This document shows, one piece after another, positions 2,494-20,484 of a stretch of DNA of 64,000 nucleotides. Position numbers and translations under genes: made by a program. How positions within the stretch are numbered: the stretch's first letter is position 1; every line of letters starts with the position of its first letter. The stretch lies in NCBI RefSeq assembly GCF_018141525.1, contig NZ_CP064655.1, positions 2,512,501 through 2,576,500 of the forward strand, given 5' to 3'. This stretch comes from Miltoncostaea marina (GTDB taxonomy: Bacteria > Actinomycetota > Thermoleophilia > Miltoncostaeales > Miltoncostaeaceae). The notes under the pieces were generated by a model. That model was given only the letters and a program-made list of their open reading frames with translations, was not told the origin of the DNA and did not search any database.

Positions 2494-3429
2494 ATGACCA
2501 CGGCCCACGGGACGACCACGGCGCGCCGCACGGCGGGCCGGGTCGCGCGCGAGGTGGTCCTGGTGGCGAACGCCAACGCGAGCGGCGCGTCCGGCGGGCG
2601 CTCGCCGGACCGGGTGGCCGCCGAGCTCAGGGCGCTGGGCGCCCGGGTCGAGCTGCTGCGCACCCGCTCGCCCGGCGAGATGGCCGACGCGTGGCGACGC
2701 GAGCCGGGCCGGCTCGTGGTGCTGCTGGGCGGCGACGGCACGCTGCACGCCGCCGTCAACCTGCCCGGCCCCGCGCCCGAGGTCGCGCTCATCCCGGCGG
2801 GCCGCGCCAACAACGTCGCCCGCTGCCTCGGCATCCCGGTCAGCCCGCCGCAGGCGGCCCGCACCGCGCTCGAGGGGCGGGCACGCCCGGTGGACCTCAT
2901 CGAGTGCCGCGCCGGGGCGAGCCGGATCGTGGCGGTCGAGGGCCTCAGCGTCGGCTTCCTCGCGCTGGCCCGCCACCGCTACCACTCGCGCAACTCGGCC
3001 GACGTCACGGCCGCCGTCGCCGCCGGCGCCGCGGCGCTCGTCCACTTCCACCCCCTCGACGTGCGGCTCACCGAGCACGGGCGCCCGGGCATGGTGCACG
3101 TCGGCCAGCTCTTCGTGGCGAACATGCAGTGCTTCGGCACGGGGCTGCGGGTGGCGCCGCACGCCGACCCCCGCGACGGCCTGCTCGACGTGGTGGCGAT
3201 CGACATCCCGGGGCGGCGGGCCATCCCGGCCATGCTCCTGCGGCTGCGCCGCGGCACGCACCTGCGGCACCGCGGCGTGCGCCGGTGGCGCGCGACGGAG
3301 ATCACCATCGAGACCCGCGGCACCTCGCCGGTCATGGCCGACGCCGAGGAGCTGGGCAGCGGGCCGGTGGAGGTGCGCGCCCTGCGCGGCGCCCTCGACG
3401 TCGTGGTGCCGGCCCAGCCATGCGACTGA
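2494..3429 (+). CDS. Diacylglycerol kinase-family lipid kinase (DagK/YegS-like)
   Basis: The protein has 311 residues. GGDGT at residues 79-83, preceded by a hydrophobic strand and followed by PAGRANNVAR, is the nucleotide-binding core of the DAGK catalytic domain (NAD-kinase/DAGK superfamily). The C-terminal half holds the beta-sandwich with the usual Asp/Glu-containing segment (DPRDGLLDVV). Such enzymes phosphorylate diacylglycerol or related lipids on the cytoplasmic membrane face. ATG 2494 has a strong GGGGAGGAA ribosome site 4-13 nt upstream. The stop overlaps the next start by 10 nt. The next gene is a PAP2 phosphatase fusion, so kinase and phosphatase could act on the same lipid phosphates. 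Confidence 0.85.
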   Translation: MTTAHGTTTARRTAGRVAREVVLVANANASGASGGRSPDRVAAELRALGARVELLRTRSPGEMADAWRREPGRLVVLLGGDGTLHAAVNLPGPAPEVALIPAGRANNVARCLGIPVSPPQAARTALEGRARPVDLIECRAGASRIVAVEGLSVGFLALARHRYHSRNSADVTAAVAAGAAALVHFHPLDVRLTEHGRPGMVHVGQLFVANMQCFGTGLRVAPHADPRDGLLDVVAIDIPGRRAIPAMLLRLRRGTHLRHRGVRRWRATEITIETRGTSPVMADAEELGSGPVEVRALRGALDVVVPAQPCD

Positions 3430-5319
3430 CCGGCGGCATGCCGCGCGCCGCCCGGTTCGGGCTGGCGACCTTCAGCGCCGCCGCGCTCGCCGCCGGCGTC
3501 GGCCGCGCCGCGGTCACCACCTACCTTCCCGTGGCGCTCGAGCGCATCGACGACGCCCCGGGGCTGATCGGGGCCGTGATGCTCGTCAACGTGGCGGCCG
3601 GCTTCGCCGTGCCGCTGTGGGTGGGCGTCTGGAGCGACCGGCTGCGCGCGCGGCCTGGGCCGCACCGGCCCCTTCATCCTCGGCGGCAGCCTGGTCACGT
3701 CGGCCGGCCTCGTGGCGATCGCGGCCGGCGCGGGGACCGGCTACCTGGTCCTCGCGTCCGCGGCGCTCGTGGCCTACGTGGGCCTCAACGCGGTCACCAC
3801 CGCCCACCGGGCGCTCATCCCGGAGACCTACGTCGAGGAGGACCGCGCCGCCGCGACCGGCGCCGAGGAGCTGGCGATGCTCGCCGGCACCACGGTCGGC
3901 GTGGCCGCCGGCGGCCTGCTCGTGGAGTGGCGCACCTGGGCGCCGTTCGCGGCGGCGGCCCTCGCGGTGCCGCTGCTGGCGGCCCCCACCGTGCGCCGCA
4001 TGCGCGGGCGCGAGCGCCCCGGCGACCCCATCGGGGCGGCCGAGGCCCGCGCGCCCCTGCGCTACTACGCGCGCCTCGTGGCCCGGCACGACGGCGTCCG
4101 CCGGGTGCTCGCCGCCCAGGCGCTCTGGGTGCTCGGCTACGCGGCGCTGCCGTCGTTCTTCGTGCTCTACGCCGACCACGTGCTCGGCCTGGGCCCCGCC
4201 CCCGCGGGCGGCCTGCTGGTGGCCTTCGGCCTGCTGACCGGCGCCGCCATGCTGCTCGCCGGCCTGGAGCGGCGGGCGGAGCGCCACCTGCCGCTGCTCG
4301 CGCTCGGGGTCGTGCTGATGGGCGGCGGCCTGCTGGCGATGACGCCCGCCGACCGGGTCGTCGAAGCGGCGCCCGGCCTCGTGGCCGCCGCGGTCGGCTT
4401 CGGGCTGCTGTCGACGCTCGGCTTCCCGGTCATGAGCCGCTTCATCCCGCCGGGCGAGGCCGGCGCCTACACCGCGGCCTACTTCAGCGCGCGCGCGGTG
4501 GCCGGGGCGGTCGCCCTGCCGGCGGCGGGCGGCGCGATCGCCGCCACGGGCAGCTACCGGGCGCTGGTCGCGTGCGGCGGCGTGGCGACCCTGTCGGCGC
4601 TCGTGCCGCTCGCGCCCATGCTGGCCGGGCACCGGCTGCGCCGGCCGCGGCGGCCGGCCCGCACGCCCGCGCGCCGGCTGGCCGGGCTCGCCGCCGTGGC
4701 GGCGGCGTGCCTCGGCGCCGGGCTGCTGGTGGCCGGAACGCCGCTGCGGCGGGCCGACCACGCGCTCTTCCGGCTGCTCAACGACCTCGGGCCGGGCCCG
4801 GCGCTGGTCGACGACATCCTGGTGGGCCCCGACTTCCGCAACTACGTCCTGCTCACCGTCGTCGCGACCGCCGCGGCCGTCGCGTGGCGCCGCGACCGGG
4901 CCCTGCGGCTCGCGGCGACGCTCGCCGCGACGGGCGTGGCGACGTGGCTGGTGGTGCGCCTGATGTGGCTGACCTGGGACCGCCCCCGCCCGCAGCTGAC
5001 GCTGGACGGCGTCGAGGTGGGCGCGCACGACTGGTCGGGCTACGCGTCCTTCCCGTCGGGCCACGTGGCCGTCTGGCTGGCGATGTCGATCGCCGTGTGG
5101 ACCGTCTTCCCGCGGGCCCGCGCGCCGCTGCTCGTCCTCGTCGCGGCGGTCGCCGTGACCCGCGTCGTCGGCGGCGCCCACTTCCCGTCCGACGTGCTGA
5201 GCGCGGTCGCGGTGGGCTGGGCCGCCGCGCGGGCCGTCGAGGCCCTCGCCCTGAGCGCCGCCAGCGCGATCCGCGCCGAGTCGCGCAGCGGCCGGAATGA
5301 GCTGACCTCGTCCCCGTAG
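3420..5319 (+). pseudogene. MFS transporter fused to a PAP2-type phosphatase, interrupted by a +1 frameshift
   Basis: ATG 3420 opens an MFS N-terminus (first helices, then WSDRLRAR) in one frame. At 3654-3658 the reading must jump by one base to continue as GRTGPFILGGSL and the rest of a 12-helix transporter to about 4680. Removing one C near 3654 gives RLGRTGPF, the usual MFS loop 2-3 motif, so an extra base is the simplest explanation. From about 4690 a PAP2 domain follows: DRPRPQL, FPSGHVAVW and the SR-like TRVVGGAHFPSD, the three phosphatase motifs. The repaired protein would be 632 residues, pairing lipid flipping or transport with phosphatidate-type phosphatase activity. The 3' end overlaps the convergent GT2 gene. 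It may be a true mutation or a sequencing error. Confidence 0.8.
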
Positions 5320-5936
5320 CGGGCCGGGATCGGCACCCACACAACCGGCACCCCCGCCCGCAGGCAGCGGGCCAGGTGGCCGGTCTCGGCCTCGAAGCCG
5401 CCCGGGGCGAACGGCACCTCGCGCAGCGCCCGCCCGTGCAGCAGGCGCATGCCGCACTGGCTGTCGCGCACGGGGCGCCTGGTCGTCACCCGCAGCAGGG
5501 CGCTCGCCGCCAGGTTCGCCATCCGCCGGTCGACGGGCATGCGCCGCAGGTCGCCGAAGCGGTCGCCGACCACCAGCTCGCCGCGCGCGGTGGCCGCGAT
5601 CATGGCCGGCGCCGCGGCCGGCGGGTGCTGGCCGTCGGCGTCGGCCACCAGCACGCCGTCGGGCGGGCGCGGCCCCGCCAGCAGCGCGGCGATGCCGGCC
5701 GCCAGCGCGTGGCCCTTGCCGCGGTTGCGCGGCAGCCGCAGCACGTCGGCGCCGCAGCCGCCGGCCAGCGCGTCCAGGCGCGCGGCGGCGGCGGGCGGCA
5801 TCCCGTCGTCCACCACCAGCAGCCCGCCCACGTGCGCGCGCAGCGCGCGCAGCAGCGCGGGCTCCGGCGGGACGAGGTGGCACGGCACCACGGCCGTCAC
5901 CGCCTCCGGCGCCAGCGGCCGGCCGGGGGTCGTCAC
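5040..5936 (-). CDS. Glycosyltransferase family 2 (dolichol-phosphate mannosyltransferase-like)
   Basis: The first 230 residues form a GT-A fold: AVVPCH, LVVDDG, the nucleotide-sugar segment NRGKGHALAAG, and the metal-binding DADGQH in place of DxD. The family transfers a sugar from a nucleotide donor to a polyprenyl or lipid acceptor at the cytoplasmic membrane. The start is GTG 5936, whose GTGA overlaps the stop of the PhoD-like gene, so the two are translationally coupled. The last ~70 codons (5040-5260) lie antisense to the PAP2 domain and lose family character, so the true C-terminus may be nearer 5250. This gives an unusually long convergent overlap of up to 280 bp. Confidence 0.82.
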   Translation of the reverse strand: MTTPGRPLAPEAVTAVVPCHLVPPEPALLRALRAHVGGLLVVDDGMPPAAAARLDALAGGCGADVLRLPRNRGKGHALAAGIAALLAGPRPPDGVLVADADGQHPPAAAPAMIAATARGELVVGDRFGDLRRMPVDRRMANLAASALLRVTTRRPVRDSQCGMRLLHGRALREVPFAPGGFEAETGHLARCLRAGVPVVWVPIPARYGDEVSSFRPLRDSARIALAALRARASTARAAAQPTATALSTSDGKWAPPTTRVTATAATRTSSGARARGKTVHTAIDIASQTATWPDGKDA

Positions 5937-7624
5937 AGGGCGAAGGCGTACGTGCCCTGCACCAGGGTCCGGCCCCGCCAGTCCATCCCGCTCAGGGTCA
6001 CCACGATGCGCCTCCCGTCGTCCCGCACCCGCATCGTGCCGAACTGGCCGCTCCCCAGGGCGACGCCCTCGCTGAAGGGGCCGCCCTTCTCGCTCGCGTG
6101 GCGGTCGAGCGGCGCGCCGTGCAGCACGGGGAAGCCGCCCCGCCCGGTGCCCGAGTAGTCGGCGTTGCTCCCGTCGTCGAGCGCCACCATGTGGGCGTCG
6201 CCGGCCAGCATCACCGCCTGGATCCCATGGCGCGCGACGAACGACGAGATCCGCGCGCGCTGGGTCGCGTAGCCGGCCCAGTCGTCGGCGCCCGCGCGGG
6301 CCGCGTCGATCCACGGCACCGGGCTGACGAGGGCCACGAGCTGCCCGCGCCTGCGCGCCCGGAGCATCTCGCGCTCGAGCCACTGCAGCTGGGCGTCGCC
6401 GATCAGGCGCTTGCGGGCGTCGTCGGGCGCGGTCGCCGGGCTGCGCTCCGAGCGGCCGTCCATCATCAGGACGCGCACCCGGCCCAGCGTGAAGGCCTGG
6501 TAGATCGGCCCCGTGGCCGCGCCGCCGGGCAGCGGGCCGTGCGGGACGTACTCGCGGTAGACCGACTGGGCGGCCGCGCGCGTCGGCGACGATGCCCCGG
6601 CGCCGTCCGGCCCGTAGTCGTGGTCGTCCCAGACGTACGCGATGCGGGTCGACAGGTGGAGCGCCTGCTGCCCGGGCCGCGAGAGCGTGTTCTCGAACTC
6701 GTCGCGGAAGCGGTCGGGGTCCCCCACGCCGATGTCCGCGTAGAACATGTCGCCGATGACCATGTAGACGTCCGGCCGCTGGGCCCGGATGGCGTCGAAG
6801 ACGGCGCCGTTCGACCCGCGCCGGGCGCAGGAGGCGAACGCCAGCGTGACGTCGGCCGGGCCGTCCGGGACGGTGGTGAACCGCCCGCGCCGGGTGCGGT
6901 CCACGCGCCCGCCGAGCTCGAGCGCGTAATGGTAGGTGCGGCCGGGTCGCAGGCCGGCGAGCCTGAAGCGCACGATCGCGCCCTCGTCCGCGCGCGACGA
7001 GGGCGCGACGCGCCGCACGGCACCGGCGGGGCCGGCCGCGGTGCCGACGACCAGGCGCACGTCCGCGACGGGCTCGTCCAGCCGCGCCACGACGACGGCC
7101 CCGTCCGGGGCGGGCGCGCCGGACCAGATCCAGTCGACCGGCCCGTCGGCCAGCCGCGCCGCCGACTCGGGGTGGGTCGGCCCGAAGGCGTACTCGTACA
7201 CCCGGTCGGCCGCGTAGCCCGCGCCCGCGCACACCAGCAGCACGCCGGCCGTGGCCACGGCCACCCGGCCGGCCCGGCCGCCGCGCACGCCGTCGCCGAT
7301 CAGCAGCGCCCCGGGGATGACGAGGGCGAGGAAGGGCGCCAGGGCGGCGTACGGGTGGTACTCGAAGGCCGCGAACACGCCGACGCCGGCGGCGGCGACC
7401 ACGATGACGACGCCGCCGGCCACCGGCCAGCGCAGCGCGGCGAGCAGGCCGGCGGCCGCGAGGGCCAGCAGGCCGATCTGGATGCGCACCTGCAGGACGC
7501 CGGCGATGAGGGCCCCCTCCGGGCCCTGCGGCACGCCCGTCGTCAGCGCCAGCACGGCGAAGGCGGCGAGGGCCGCCGCGCACCAGGCGAGGGCGACGCG
7601 CCGGATGATCGCGTGCGACGGCAT
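5933..7624 (-). CDS. Membrane-anchored PhoD-like alkaline phosphatase / phosphodiesterase
   Basis: The protein has 563 residues. The first ~170 contain about five hydrophobic segments (a small membrane domain), then a fibronectin-like N-terminal PhoD domain and the PhoD catalytic core: FASCARRG, MVIGDMFYAD, WDDHDYG, MDGRSERSP and LAGDAHM, which carry the metal ligands. PhoD enzymes hydrolyse phosphomono- or diesters (teichoic acid, phospholipid head groups) outside the cell with Ca/Fe. Instead of a Tat signal it has multiple membrane spans, placing the catalytic domain outside. The downstream GT2 overlaps it in a GTGA. The start is ATG 7624, with a weak GAGG upstream. Confidence 0.85.
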   Translation of the reverse strand: MPSHAIIRRVALAWCAAALAAFAVLALTTGVPQGPEGALIAGVLQVRIQIGLLALAAAGLLAALRWPVAGGVVIVVAAAGVGVFAAFEYHPYAALAPFLALVIPGALLIGDGVRGGRAGRVAVATAGVLLVCAGAGYAADRVYEYAFGPTHPESAARLADGPVDWIWSGAPAPDGAVVVARLDEPVADVRLVVGTAAGPAGAVRRVAPSSRADEGAIVRFRLAGLRPGRTYHYALELGGRVDRTRRGRFTTVPDGPADVTLAFASCARRGSNGAVFDAIRAQRPDVYMVIGDMFYADIGVGDPDRFRDEFENTLSRPGQQALHLSTRIAYVWDDHDYGPDGAGASSPTRAAAQSVYREYVPHGPLPGGAATGPIYQAFTLGRVRVLMMDGRSERSPATAPDDARKRLIGDAQLQWLEREMLRARRRGQLVALVSPVPWIDAARAGADDWAGYATQRARISSFVARHGIQAVMLAGDAHMVALDDGSNADYSGTGRGGFPVLHGAPLDRHASEKGGPFSEGVALGSGQFGTMRVRDDGRRIVVTLSGMDWRGRTLVQGTYAFAL

Positions 7625-11211: not shown

Positions 11212-11948
11212 TGCGGGTCGCCGCGATGGCCGACGTCCACTTCGGCCGCGACTCGGCGGGCACGCTGCGGCCGCACCTGCGCGACATCGGGCACGAGGCC
11301 GACGTCCTGCTGATCGCGGGCGATCTCACGACCTGCGGCCACCCCGACGAGGCCCGCGTGCTGGCGCACGAGCTGGAGGGGCTGCCCGTCCCCGTGGTCG
11401 CCGTCCTCGGCAACCACGACCACCACGCCGACCGCGCCGCGGAGCTGCGGGCCGTGATGGAGGCGGGCGGCGTCACCGTGCTCGAGGGCCAGGCGACGGT
11501 CGTCGAGCTGGACGGCGGTCGCCTCGGCGTGGCCGGCGCGAAGGGCTTCGGGGGCGGGTTCGTGGGCGCGTGCGCGGCCGACTTCGGGGAGGCCGAGATG
11601 AAGGCCTTCGTGCGCCACACGAAGGAGGTCGCCGGCCGGCTCCGCGCGACGCTCGAGGGCCTCGACACCCCGGCCCGGGTCGCGCTGCTGCACTACTCGC
11701 CGGTCGAGGCGACGCTGCACGGCGAGCGGCCCGAGATCTTCCCCTTCCTCGGCAGCTACCTGCTCGCGGAGGCGGTCGACCACGCGGGCGCCGACCTGGT
11801 GCTGCACGGCCACGCCCACGCCGGCTCGCCACAGGGCGCGACCCCCGGCGGGGTGCCGGTGCGCAACGTGGCCCAGCCGGTGATCGGCTCGGCCTACCAG
11901 GTGTTCACCCTGCTCGAGACGCCCGCGGGGGCCGCCCGTGCCGATTGA
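11211..11948 (+). CDS. Calcineurin-like metallophosphoesterase
   Basis: The 245-residue protein carries the full metallophosphatase set: ADVHFG (D, H), LIAGDLT (D), LGNHDHH (N, H), a later LLHYSP and HGHAHAG (H, H). Such enzymes hydrolyse phosphoesters or cyclic nucleotides using two metals; no signal peptide is seen, so it is cytoplasmic. It is coupled to the upstream BON gene (TGATG) and overlaps the next gene by 11 nt, so the three genes look like one transcript. The substrate cannot be told from sequence. Confidence 0.87.
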   Translation: MRVAAMADVHFGRDSAGTLRPHLRDIGHEADVLLIAGDLTTCGHPDEARVLAHELEGLPVPVVAVLGNHDHHADRAAELRAVMEAGGVTVLEGQATVVELDGGRLGVAGAKGFGGGFVGACAADFGEAEMKAFVRHTKEVAGRLRATLEGLDTPARVALLHYSPVEATLHGERPEIFPFLGSYLLAEAVDHAGADLVLHGHAHAGSPQGATPGGVPVRNVAQPVIGSAYQVFTLLETPAGAARAD

Positions 11949-17397: not shown

Positions 17398-17798
17398 TCA
17401 TCTCCGGGCGGCCACCGCCCCGCGCACGGCCTCGACGACCTCCCGGGCGGACGCGCCGGGCCCCAGCACGGCGGCCACGCCCGCCGCGCGCAGCTCGTCG
17501 GCGTCGCGCTCGGGGATGATCCCGCCGACCACCACGGGCGCGTCCAGGCCCAGCGCGCGCAGGGCCTCCACCATGGCCGGCGCCAGCGTCAAGTGGCTCG
17601 CGTTGTGCATCGAGATGCCGACGGCGTCGGCGTCCTCCTGCTCCACCACGCTCGCGACGGCCTCGGGCGTCTGGCGCAGGCCGAGGTAGACGACCTCCAT
17701 GCCGGCGTCGCGGAGCGTGCGGGCCACCACCTTCAGGCCGCGGTCGTGGCCGTCGAAGCCGAGCTTGGCCAGCACGATGCGGGGCCGCTCGGGGGCCA

Positions 17799-17799
<1 letters not shown>
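17398..17799 (-). CDS. Methylmalonyl-CoA mutase small subunit (B12-binding domain)
   Basis: This 133-residue stand-alone cobalamin-binding domain has AKLGFDGHDRG with the base-off/His-on DxHxxG motif (Asp16, His18, Gly21), GISMHNASHLTL as the Ser/His segment near the nucleotide tail, and VVVGGIIPERD. It docks on the catalytic subunit to hold adenosylcobalamin. The start overlaps the large-subunit stop (TGATG), so the subunits are translated together. The split-subunit form is usual in archaea and some actinobacteria. Confidence 0.9.
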
Positions 17800-19463
<1,664 letters not shown>

Positions 19464-19468
19464 TGATG

Positions 19469-19509
19469 TCCAACCGTTGGATGACAAAGCATAGGTCGCC
19501 GCCTAGCAT
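19469..19509. promoter_or_regulatory. Divergent MarR/mutase promoter with 13-bp palindrome
   Basis: TCCAAC-C-GTTGGA (19469-19481) is a perfect palindrome 6 bp upstream of the mutase ATG. On the plus strand it touches ATGACA (-35, 19481-19486), followed after 17 bp by TAGCAT (-10, 19504-19509). Six bases further is the ATC codon proposed as the MarR start. On the minus strand TATGCT (19493-19488) is a plausible -10 for the mutase operon. The site could let one MarR dimer control both directions. Confidence 0.65.
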
Positions 19510-19515
19510 CGGTCC

Positions 19516-20013
19516 ATCGCCACCCTCGACCACGACCCCCTCGCCGACGCCCGCCGCAACTGGGAGGCCCACGGCTGGGGCGCCCCCGAGGCCATGGTGG
19601 CGGCCACGTCCATCGCGCGGGCGCAGCAGATCGTGCTCGGGCGCATCGACGCCGCGCTCGCGCCCCACGGGCTGACCTTCTCGCGCTTCGAGGCGCTTGC
19701 GCTGCTGCACTTCTCGCGCGCCGGCGCGCTGCCCATGGGCAAGATCGGCGAGCGCCTGCAGGTGCACCCCACGAGCGTCACCAACACCGTCACCCGCCTG
19801 GAGCGCGACGGCCTCGTGCGGCGGGTGCCCTCCGAGCGCGACCGGCGCACCGTGCTCGCCGAGATCACCCCGCTGGGCCGGCGCACCGTCGATGCGGCCG
19901 CGGCGGCGCTCGTGGACGCCGGCTTCGGCCTCGACGGCCTGCCCGACGACGCGGTGCGGCGCGTGCACGAGGCGATCCTGCCGCTGCGCCGCGCCGCCGG
20001 CGACTTCGGGTAG
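19516..20013 (+). CDS. MarR-family regulator, probably starting at a non-canonical ATC
   Basis: The core from ATG 19594 gives 139 residues with a MarR winged helix (GKIGERLQVHPTSVTNTVTR, then RDRRTVLAEITPLGR). Upstream, codons from 19516 read IATLDHDPLADARRNWEAHG without a stop; that segment is the usual N-terminal helix of this subfamily. The only codon placed to start it is ATC 19516, exactly 6 nt after a good -10 box, as in the other leaderless genes here. From ATC the protein has 165 residues. If ATC is not used, the protein starts at 19594 and lacks its dimerisation helix. Confidence 0.78.
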   Translation: MATLDHDPLADARRNWEAHGWGAPEAMVAATSIARAQQIVLGRIDAALAPHGLTFSRFEALALLHFSRAGALPMGKIGERLQVHPTSVTNTVTRLERDGLVRRVPSERDRRTVLAEITPLGRRTVDAAAAALVDAGFGLDGLPDDAVRRVHEAILPLRRAAGDFG

Positions 20014-20064: not shown

Positions 20065-20445
20065 TCAGGCCTCGGCGAGCCCCGTCCTGGGGATCGCCTG
20101 TGGCCCCGCCTCGAGGACACGGGCGAACGCCGACCGGCGGCTGACCGCCGGCCGGCGCCCGTCCTCCTCCCGCGCCTCGAGGCCGAACAGCCACCGGGCG
20201 TCCTCGACGCAGTCGCCCGCCCGCAGGCGGGCGGTCGGCTCGTCGAGCAACGCGTCCACGAGGTCCTGGGTGAGGATCTCGAGGCGGCGGCGGTCACGCG
20301 GGCCGAGCCCGGCCCAGCATCCCTGCGCGCGGGCGAGCTCCGCCCGGCGGACGTCCTCGGCCAGCGAGTGCAGCGCCACGATCAGCGCCGCCGCCTCCCG
20401 TCCGCGGTCGGGACGGGTGCCGGGCTGGTGCCGCTCGGCCGACAT
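20065..20445 (-). CDS. Stand-alone protein resembling the glutamyl-tRNA reductase dimerisation domain
   Basis: The 126-residue protein contains LAEDVRRAELARAQGCWAGL, then RDRRRLEILTQDLVDALLDE and PTARLRAG. This order and spacing match the C-terminal helical dimerisation domain of HemA (PF00745: an I/VRRxEL helix, then LTxxLVxxLLxxPTxxL). No catalytic or NADPH domain is present, and no other haem gene is adjacent. It could modulate HemA by hetero-dimerising, or be a repurposed helical domain. ATG 20445 is chosen because GAGGAGGT lies 7 nt upstream. A strong hairpin separates it from the propeller gene above. Confidence 0.6.
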   Translation of the reverse strand: MSAERHQPGTRPDRGREAAALIVALHSLAEDVRRAELARAQGCWAGLGPRDRRRLEILTQDLVDALLDEPTARLRAGDCVEDARWLFGLEAREEDGRRPAVSRRSAFARVLEAGPQAIPRTGLAEA

Positions 20446-20484
20446 CGGGTGCACCTCCTCGGCTGACGGATCGGGGTGACGCCG

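Follow-up and report, generated by a model that had tools for sequence, protein, structure and literature searches.

An AUC codon as the very probable start of a leaderless MarR gene in Miltoncostaea marina

The MarR gene and its upstream region

The MarR-type gene within the 64,000 nucleotides of Miltoncostaea marina DNA analysed here (the window, from a genome of one contig of 3,370,274 bases, G000) raises the question of where its translation begins. The frame is closed upstream by an in-frame TAG at 19504–19506 and its first ATG, GTG or TTG is ATG 19594. From that TAG to this ATG there is a sole codon that is one base away from ATG, which is the ATC at 19516–19518. A −10-like TAGCAT (19504–19509, forward strand), the first three bases of which are the in-frame stop, ends exactly 6 nt before the ATC, and is itself separated by a 17 nt spacer from a −35-like ATGACA (19481–19486, forward strand). 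Such a spacing fits the layout of a leaderless gene, where the start lies 6–8 nt past the −10 and there is no space for a leader or a Shine-Dalgarno (SD) sequence. The original prediction had named the TAG, both promoter-like hexamers, their spacer, the 6 nt interval, the ATC and the first ATG, and all of these are as claimed when the sequence is read again.

Taking the ATC as the likely start codon and transcript 5' end, the coding sequence runs from 19516 to 20013 on the forward strand and encodes 165 amino acids plus the stop. The protein matches Pfam MarR (2.8e-13, matched region 54–113), passing the cut-offs of both PF01047 (50 bits, cut-off 24.6) and PF12802 (49.8 bits, cut-off 27). Divergent from it, on the complementary strand, are a methylmalonyl-CoA mutase-type large subunit (17799–19463; Pfam MM_CoA_mutase 1.5e-204, for the frame from 19487) and the B12-binding small subunit of this mutase (17398–17799; Pfam B12-binding 1.9e-29). 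The start of the large subunit is assumed to be ATG 19463, with TTG 19487 and GTG 19445 as in-frame alternatives. A short frame of 129 amino acids at 20065–20454, also on the complementary strand, has a glutamyl-tRNA reductase dimerisation domain as its sole match.

Coding potential before the first ATG

In a codon-usage screen of the 46 gene models of the window, the coding boundary of the MarR gene falls at exactly 19516. The coding score between the stop and the first canonical start is 12.6, the highest of the 46, with the runner-up at 1.8. By the score of the best-scoring part, the MarR gene again leads the window (15.6), and second to it (11.9) is a transporter-like gene that seems to be frameshifted. 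Over the 1.264 Mb screened, which is about 37.5% of the genome and holds 1009 models, the MarR gene ranks eighth.

In an alignment of the window protein with 27 homologues, residues D7, P8, A12, W16 and W21, all of which are before Met27, are invariant in 28 of 28 sequences. They are also present in genome G018, which stands outside this alignment and whose codons 2–25 align with those of the window without a gap, GC3 being 1.0 and 0.96. The pN/pS values between the two for these codons (0.18/0.29) are laxer than those for codons 26–150 (0.15/0.41), on 24 codons only. In the AlphaFold2 model of the full protein, which has a mean pLDDT of 94.3, the first helix occupies codons 8–18 (19537–19569, forward strand), upstream of the first ATG. 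It had been predicted that a conserved helix lies there, and homologues without it had been named as evidence to the contrary; the five residues are invariant and the homologues in the alignment do have the stretch. By three signs, the boundary score, the invariant residues and the gapless codons of high GC3, the N-terminal stretch before Met27 is coding.

These results bear on the alternative that translation starts at ATG 19594 (19594–19596, Met27) and that, in both the window and G018, the frame ahead of it survives from a longer protein but is no longer translated. Met27 is itself present in all 28 aligned sequences, and the Pfam MarR match at 54–113 lies within the residues from Met27 on. 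The best PDB match of the MarR protein, and its nearest solved homologue, is Sco5413 (profile 3e-60; fold rmsd 1.4, 53% identity), to which a 2013 paper by Holley et al. is reportedly linked. The crystal chain of Sco5413 starts about 6 residues before the position of Met27, does not include the first helix, and folds; the first helix is therefore not needed for folding, and a protein started at Met27 could fold. Against this reading, the upstream stretch is stop-free as well as gapless and GC3-rich, with all five invariant residues in both genomes, and the GAGG upstream of ATG 19594 is a mere 2 nt from it. The ATC and its spacing from the −10 are also common to both genomes and, because of this and of the conserved upstream codons, a start at Met27 is considered improbable.

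The ATC codon in homologues

The start regions of 128 homologous loci were read, including that of the window: 115 distinct loci, one source of which was the best 80 of 239 matches and another a search that listed 61 matches, 34 of which were read, and a further 13 drawn from 396 genomes across the phylum. In 126 of the 128 (a sample that includes the best 80 of 239), an in-frame ATG, GTG or TTG occurs after the upstream stop and before D7. For the 115 loci, with the same best 80 of 239 among them, a canonical start is found within codons −5 to +6 in 112, only farther away in one (L084), and not at all in two. Among the loci read, those with none are that of the window and L010, which belongs to G018, a genome from another genus of the same family.

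The L010 protein is 76% identical to the window MarR. Its frame is likewise closed by an in-frame TAG; the matching codon is again ATC, and TAGTCT lies exactly 6 nt before it. In a tree built from 48 of the 115 rows, the two make up one clade (support 100/99), and the divergent neighbour in both, as in L041, is a methylmalonyl-CoA mutase-type large subunit. The upstream DNA of the two is otherwise unalike, with 12 of 60 positions equal in an ungapped comparison. None of the other three members of the genus gave a close MarR orthologue, the best identity there being 41%. This comparison supports the original prediction that the gene starts with ATC on a leaderless mRNA.

That the ATC is a sequencing error for a true ATG, or that the gene is a pseudogene, might be suggested by the single base that separates ATC from ATG and by the apparent frameshift in the transporter-like gene of the same window. 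The same ATC is found, however, in the independent genome G018 at a protein identity of 76%, the remaining MarR frame is open, and gyrB has an ATC in all four members of the genus, which leaves an error or a pseudogene barely credible.

Frequency of the leaderless layout

TANNNT precedes a canonical start by 5–8 nt in 30 of the 115 homologous loci (best 80 of 239 included). Among these 30 are 11 of the 13 homologues of at least 60% identity other than G018, with TANNNT, then 6–7 nt, then GTG or ATG. The motif is rare in G000, with 763 occurrences among the 2,528,000 positions on the two strands of 1.264 Mb, and near gene starts it precedes 114 in-frame codons at 6 nt (1012 gene models, at most 31 codons each). 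A −10 at exactly 6 nt before the ATC in both the window and G018 is, on this sequence comparison, more than chance, as TANNNT is rare, yet the same 6 nt is kept in G018 despite unalike upstream DNA.

Within 15 codons of the coding boundaries in the G000 sample, ATG and GTG taken together have 59 occurrences at 6 nt after TANNNT, 47 at 7 nt and 26 at 8 nt, against a single one at 4 nt and another at 5 nt. At 6, 7 and 8 nt, TTG is seen 0, 0 and 1 times and ATC 2, 1 and 1 times, the MarR gene being among the ATC cases. Judged by spacing, leaderless-type starts would thus be common in G000, with ATG or GTG as the codon in nearly every case, and the ATC of the MarR gene is an exception.

In Mycobacterium smegmatis, according to Shell et al. 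2015 (PMC4633059), only ATG and GTG are active in the leaderless position, where ATC was the negative control and non-RTG codons accounted for 547 of 343,242 reads; when an SD sequence was supplied, ATC retained 0.2% of the reads. The leaderless mRNAs of mycobacteria are like the predicted MarR transcript in that the start codon is at the 5' end, right behind the promoter. They differ in that ATG and GTG alone work (PMC4633059), a rule that the ATC of the window would break, as would that of G018. The original prediction had added that a leaderless position may allow odd codons. As a rule this does not hold, the leaderless-type sites of G000 being almost only ATG or GTG and M. smegmatis having rejected others (PMC4633059).

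Translation might instead start at another odd codon of the stretch, or after a leader transcribed from an upstream promoter. Indeed, CTC at codon 4 is also common to G018, and some −10-like matches are not promoters. The ATC alone, however, is one base from ATG in the window stretch and is alone in being at the 6 nt leaderless spacing used by the nearest homologues, and TAG 19504 closes the frame. Both variants are considered highly improbable.

Initiator tRNA and proposed mechanism

ARAGORN called 46 of the 47 Rfam tRNA matches of G000, with a CAT anticodon at three loci and one tRNA-Ile with GAT. The CAT locus L188 has an unpaired first position and GGG/CCC in the anticodon stem, which are taken here to be the hallmarks of an initiator. 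A reassigned initiator tRNA is not favoured, as an initiator with a GAU anticodon was sought among the tRNA matches and not found, the initiator-like tRNA having CAU. A pattern search for the 3' tail of the 16S rRNA gave no match. A weak Rfam tRNA match (L240, G000 1508123–1508178; 29.8 bits) has no ARAGORN call.

On the evidence of the codon, its frame and spacing, its presence in G018, the coding character of the N-terminal stretch and the lack of a canonical start, a leaderless mRNA very probably begins with AUC 19516. In the explanation proposed, which as a whole is held with considerable confidence, the promoter at 19481–19509 would give an mRNA whose 5' end is at, or a base or two from, the A of AUC 19516. 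Translation from this AUC, presumably initiated with methionine, would give the 165-residue protein with its first helix ahead of the first AUG. The third base of AUC would be mismatched with the CAU anticodon of the standard initiator tRNA, and initiation is therefore probably weak.

A putative operator, the imperfect palindrome GTCCAACCGTTGGAT at 19468–19482, overlaps the −35. Stretches that look palindromic or similar are seen at a comparable position in G018 and in several Acidimicrobiia homologues. Weak initiation together with repression via this palindrome may keep the repressor scarce, and the scarce MarR protein would control its own gene and the divergent methylmalonyl-CoA mutase genes, presumably at both promoters.

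By its codon, ATC 19516 is a start triplet without a 3'-G, so that, if initiation does take place there, it would be in the class discriminated against by IF3. A review (PMC4611024) includes AUC among the start triplets found in bacteria, and has IF3 discriminating against the triplets without a 3'-G (AUU, AUC, AUA) and antagonising leaderless translation; according to it, AUG on leaderless mRNAs is not replaceable by any other tested codon. The MarR gene would belong with gyrB and glmM, described below, among such IF3-discriminated starts, and would differ in having no leader and no SD sequence.

Among the titles and abstract openings listed for AUC or ATC starts and for leaderless AUC, there is no bacterial leaderless AUC start, and absence from print is not claimed. 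A natural leaderless AUC start common to two genera would show that the AUG/GUG rule is not general, and the MarR locus would offer a convenient gene on which to study third-base discrimination by ribosomes and IF3.

Other candidate AUC and CTG starts in the lineage

Ten candidates from the codon-usage screen were sought in G001–G003, the other members of the genus, and segment L247 had no match there. The gyrB genes of the four genus members (L146, G000 4592–7009; L197, L198 and L199) share an ATC at a single codon position, 6 nt after AGGAGG. In G000 there is no in-frame canonical start ahead of the conserved core; in the other three the first canonical start is a GTG, at codon 21 for G001 and at codon 10 for both G002 and G003. 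When gyrB was sought in 42 genomes of the family and 30 loci were read, all 26 loci from other genera had GTG, TTG or ATG upstream. A DivIC-like gene (L151 near 11677; L287, L288, L294) also has ATC at the same codon in all four genomes, with an in-frame TGA two codons ahead of the ATC in G001.

In G055, from another family of the class, glmM has ATC in the start column (L311 7176). When 30 of 60 matches were read, 27 of 29 relatives had a canonical start (ATG, GTG, TTG) at one of codons 0 to 2, and the remaining two had only a GTG farther upstream.

CTG is seen at the start of fabD (L279 near 9683) in all four members of the genus, G002 and G003 having a GTG ten codons upstream, and at that of an AEC transporter (L255, complement near 18102) in G000, with GTG or ATG in G001–G003. 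A tyrA-like gene (L158, complement near 11660) has ATG in G001–G003 and CCC in G000.

From these comparisons, the lineage seems to use AUC as a start in further genes. A broader reading, that it has relaxed third-base discrimination and that AUC is a regular, conserved start, SD-led in gyrB and glmM and leaderless at least once, is put forward tentatively, at somewhat less than even probability. If true, it would break the AUG/GUG leaderless rule known from mycobacteria. Gene finders that accept ATG, GTG and TTG only would mis-start or truncate such proteins, and the N-termini of important proteins such as those of gyrB and glmM would then be wrong. Several non-canonical start codons reportedly lie behind the annotation of the Deinococcus deserti genome (Baudet et al. 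2010), which would be a similar case in a bacterial genome.

Upstream scores above 10 were reached by 18 of the 1012 models from G000, by 14 of the 334 from G001 and by 3 of the 308 from G055. The screen is not specific to AUC, since its high scorers include frameshifts, shadow frames and the CTG cases, and a genome-wide rate of AUC starts is therefore not claimed. Several candidates for an AUC start were set aside. In hemC (L242 17340) the ATC is absent in G001 and G002, whose upstream frame is open; for an SNase-like gene (L159) and an NlpC/P60 gene (L263) the G000 ATC candidate is not common to the relatives found; and in panE (L251) the ATC is present in G000 and G002 and missing in G001. 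A better start for L152 seems, by eye, to be downstream, and the high scorers L156, L248, L272 and window 3652 look, also by eye, like frameshifts or shadow frames.

The hemC frame has an in-frame TAG ahead in G000 and is open far upstream in G001 and G002 (756 and 446 amino acids), where it might be a fusion with the preceding gene. A metallophosphatase-like frame of G001 (L338, complement 4071–4796) may start at ATC GCC ATC CTC. The transporter-like gene of the window is at 3420–5319 on the forward strand, its apparent frameshift being near 3645.
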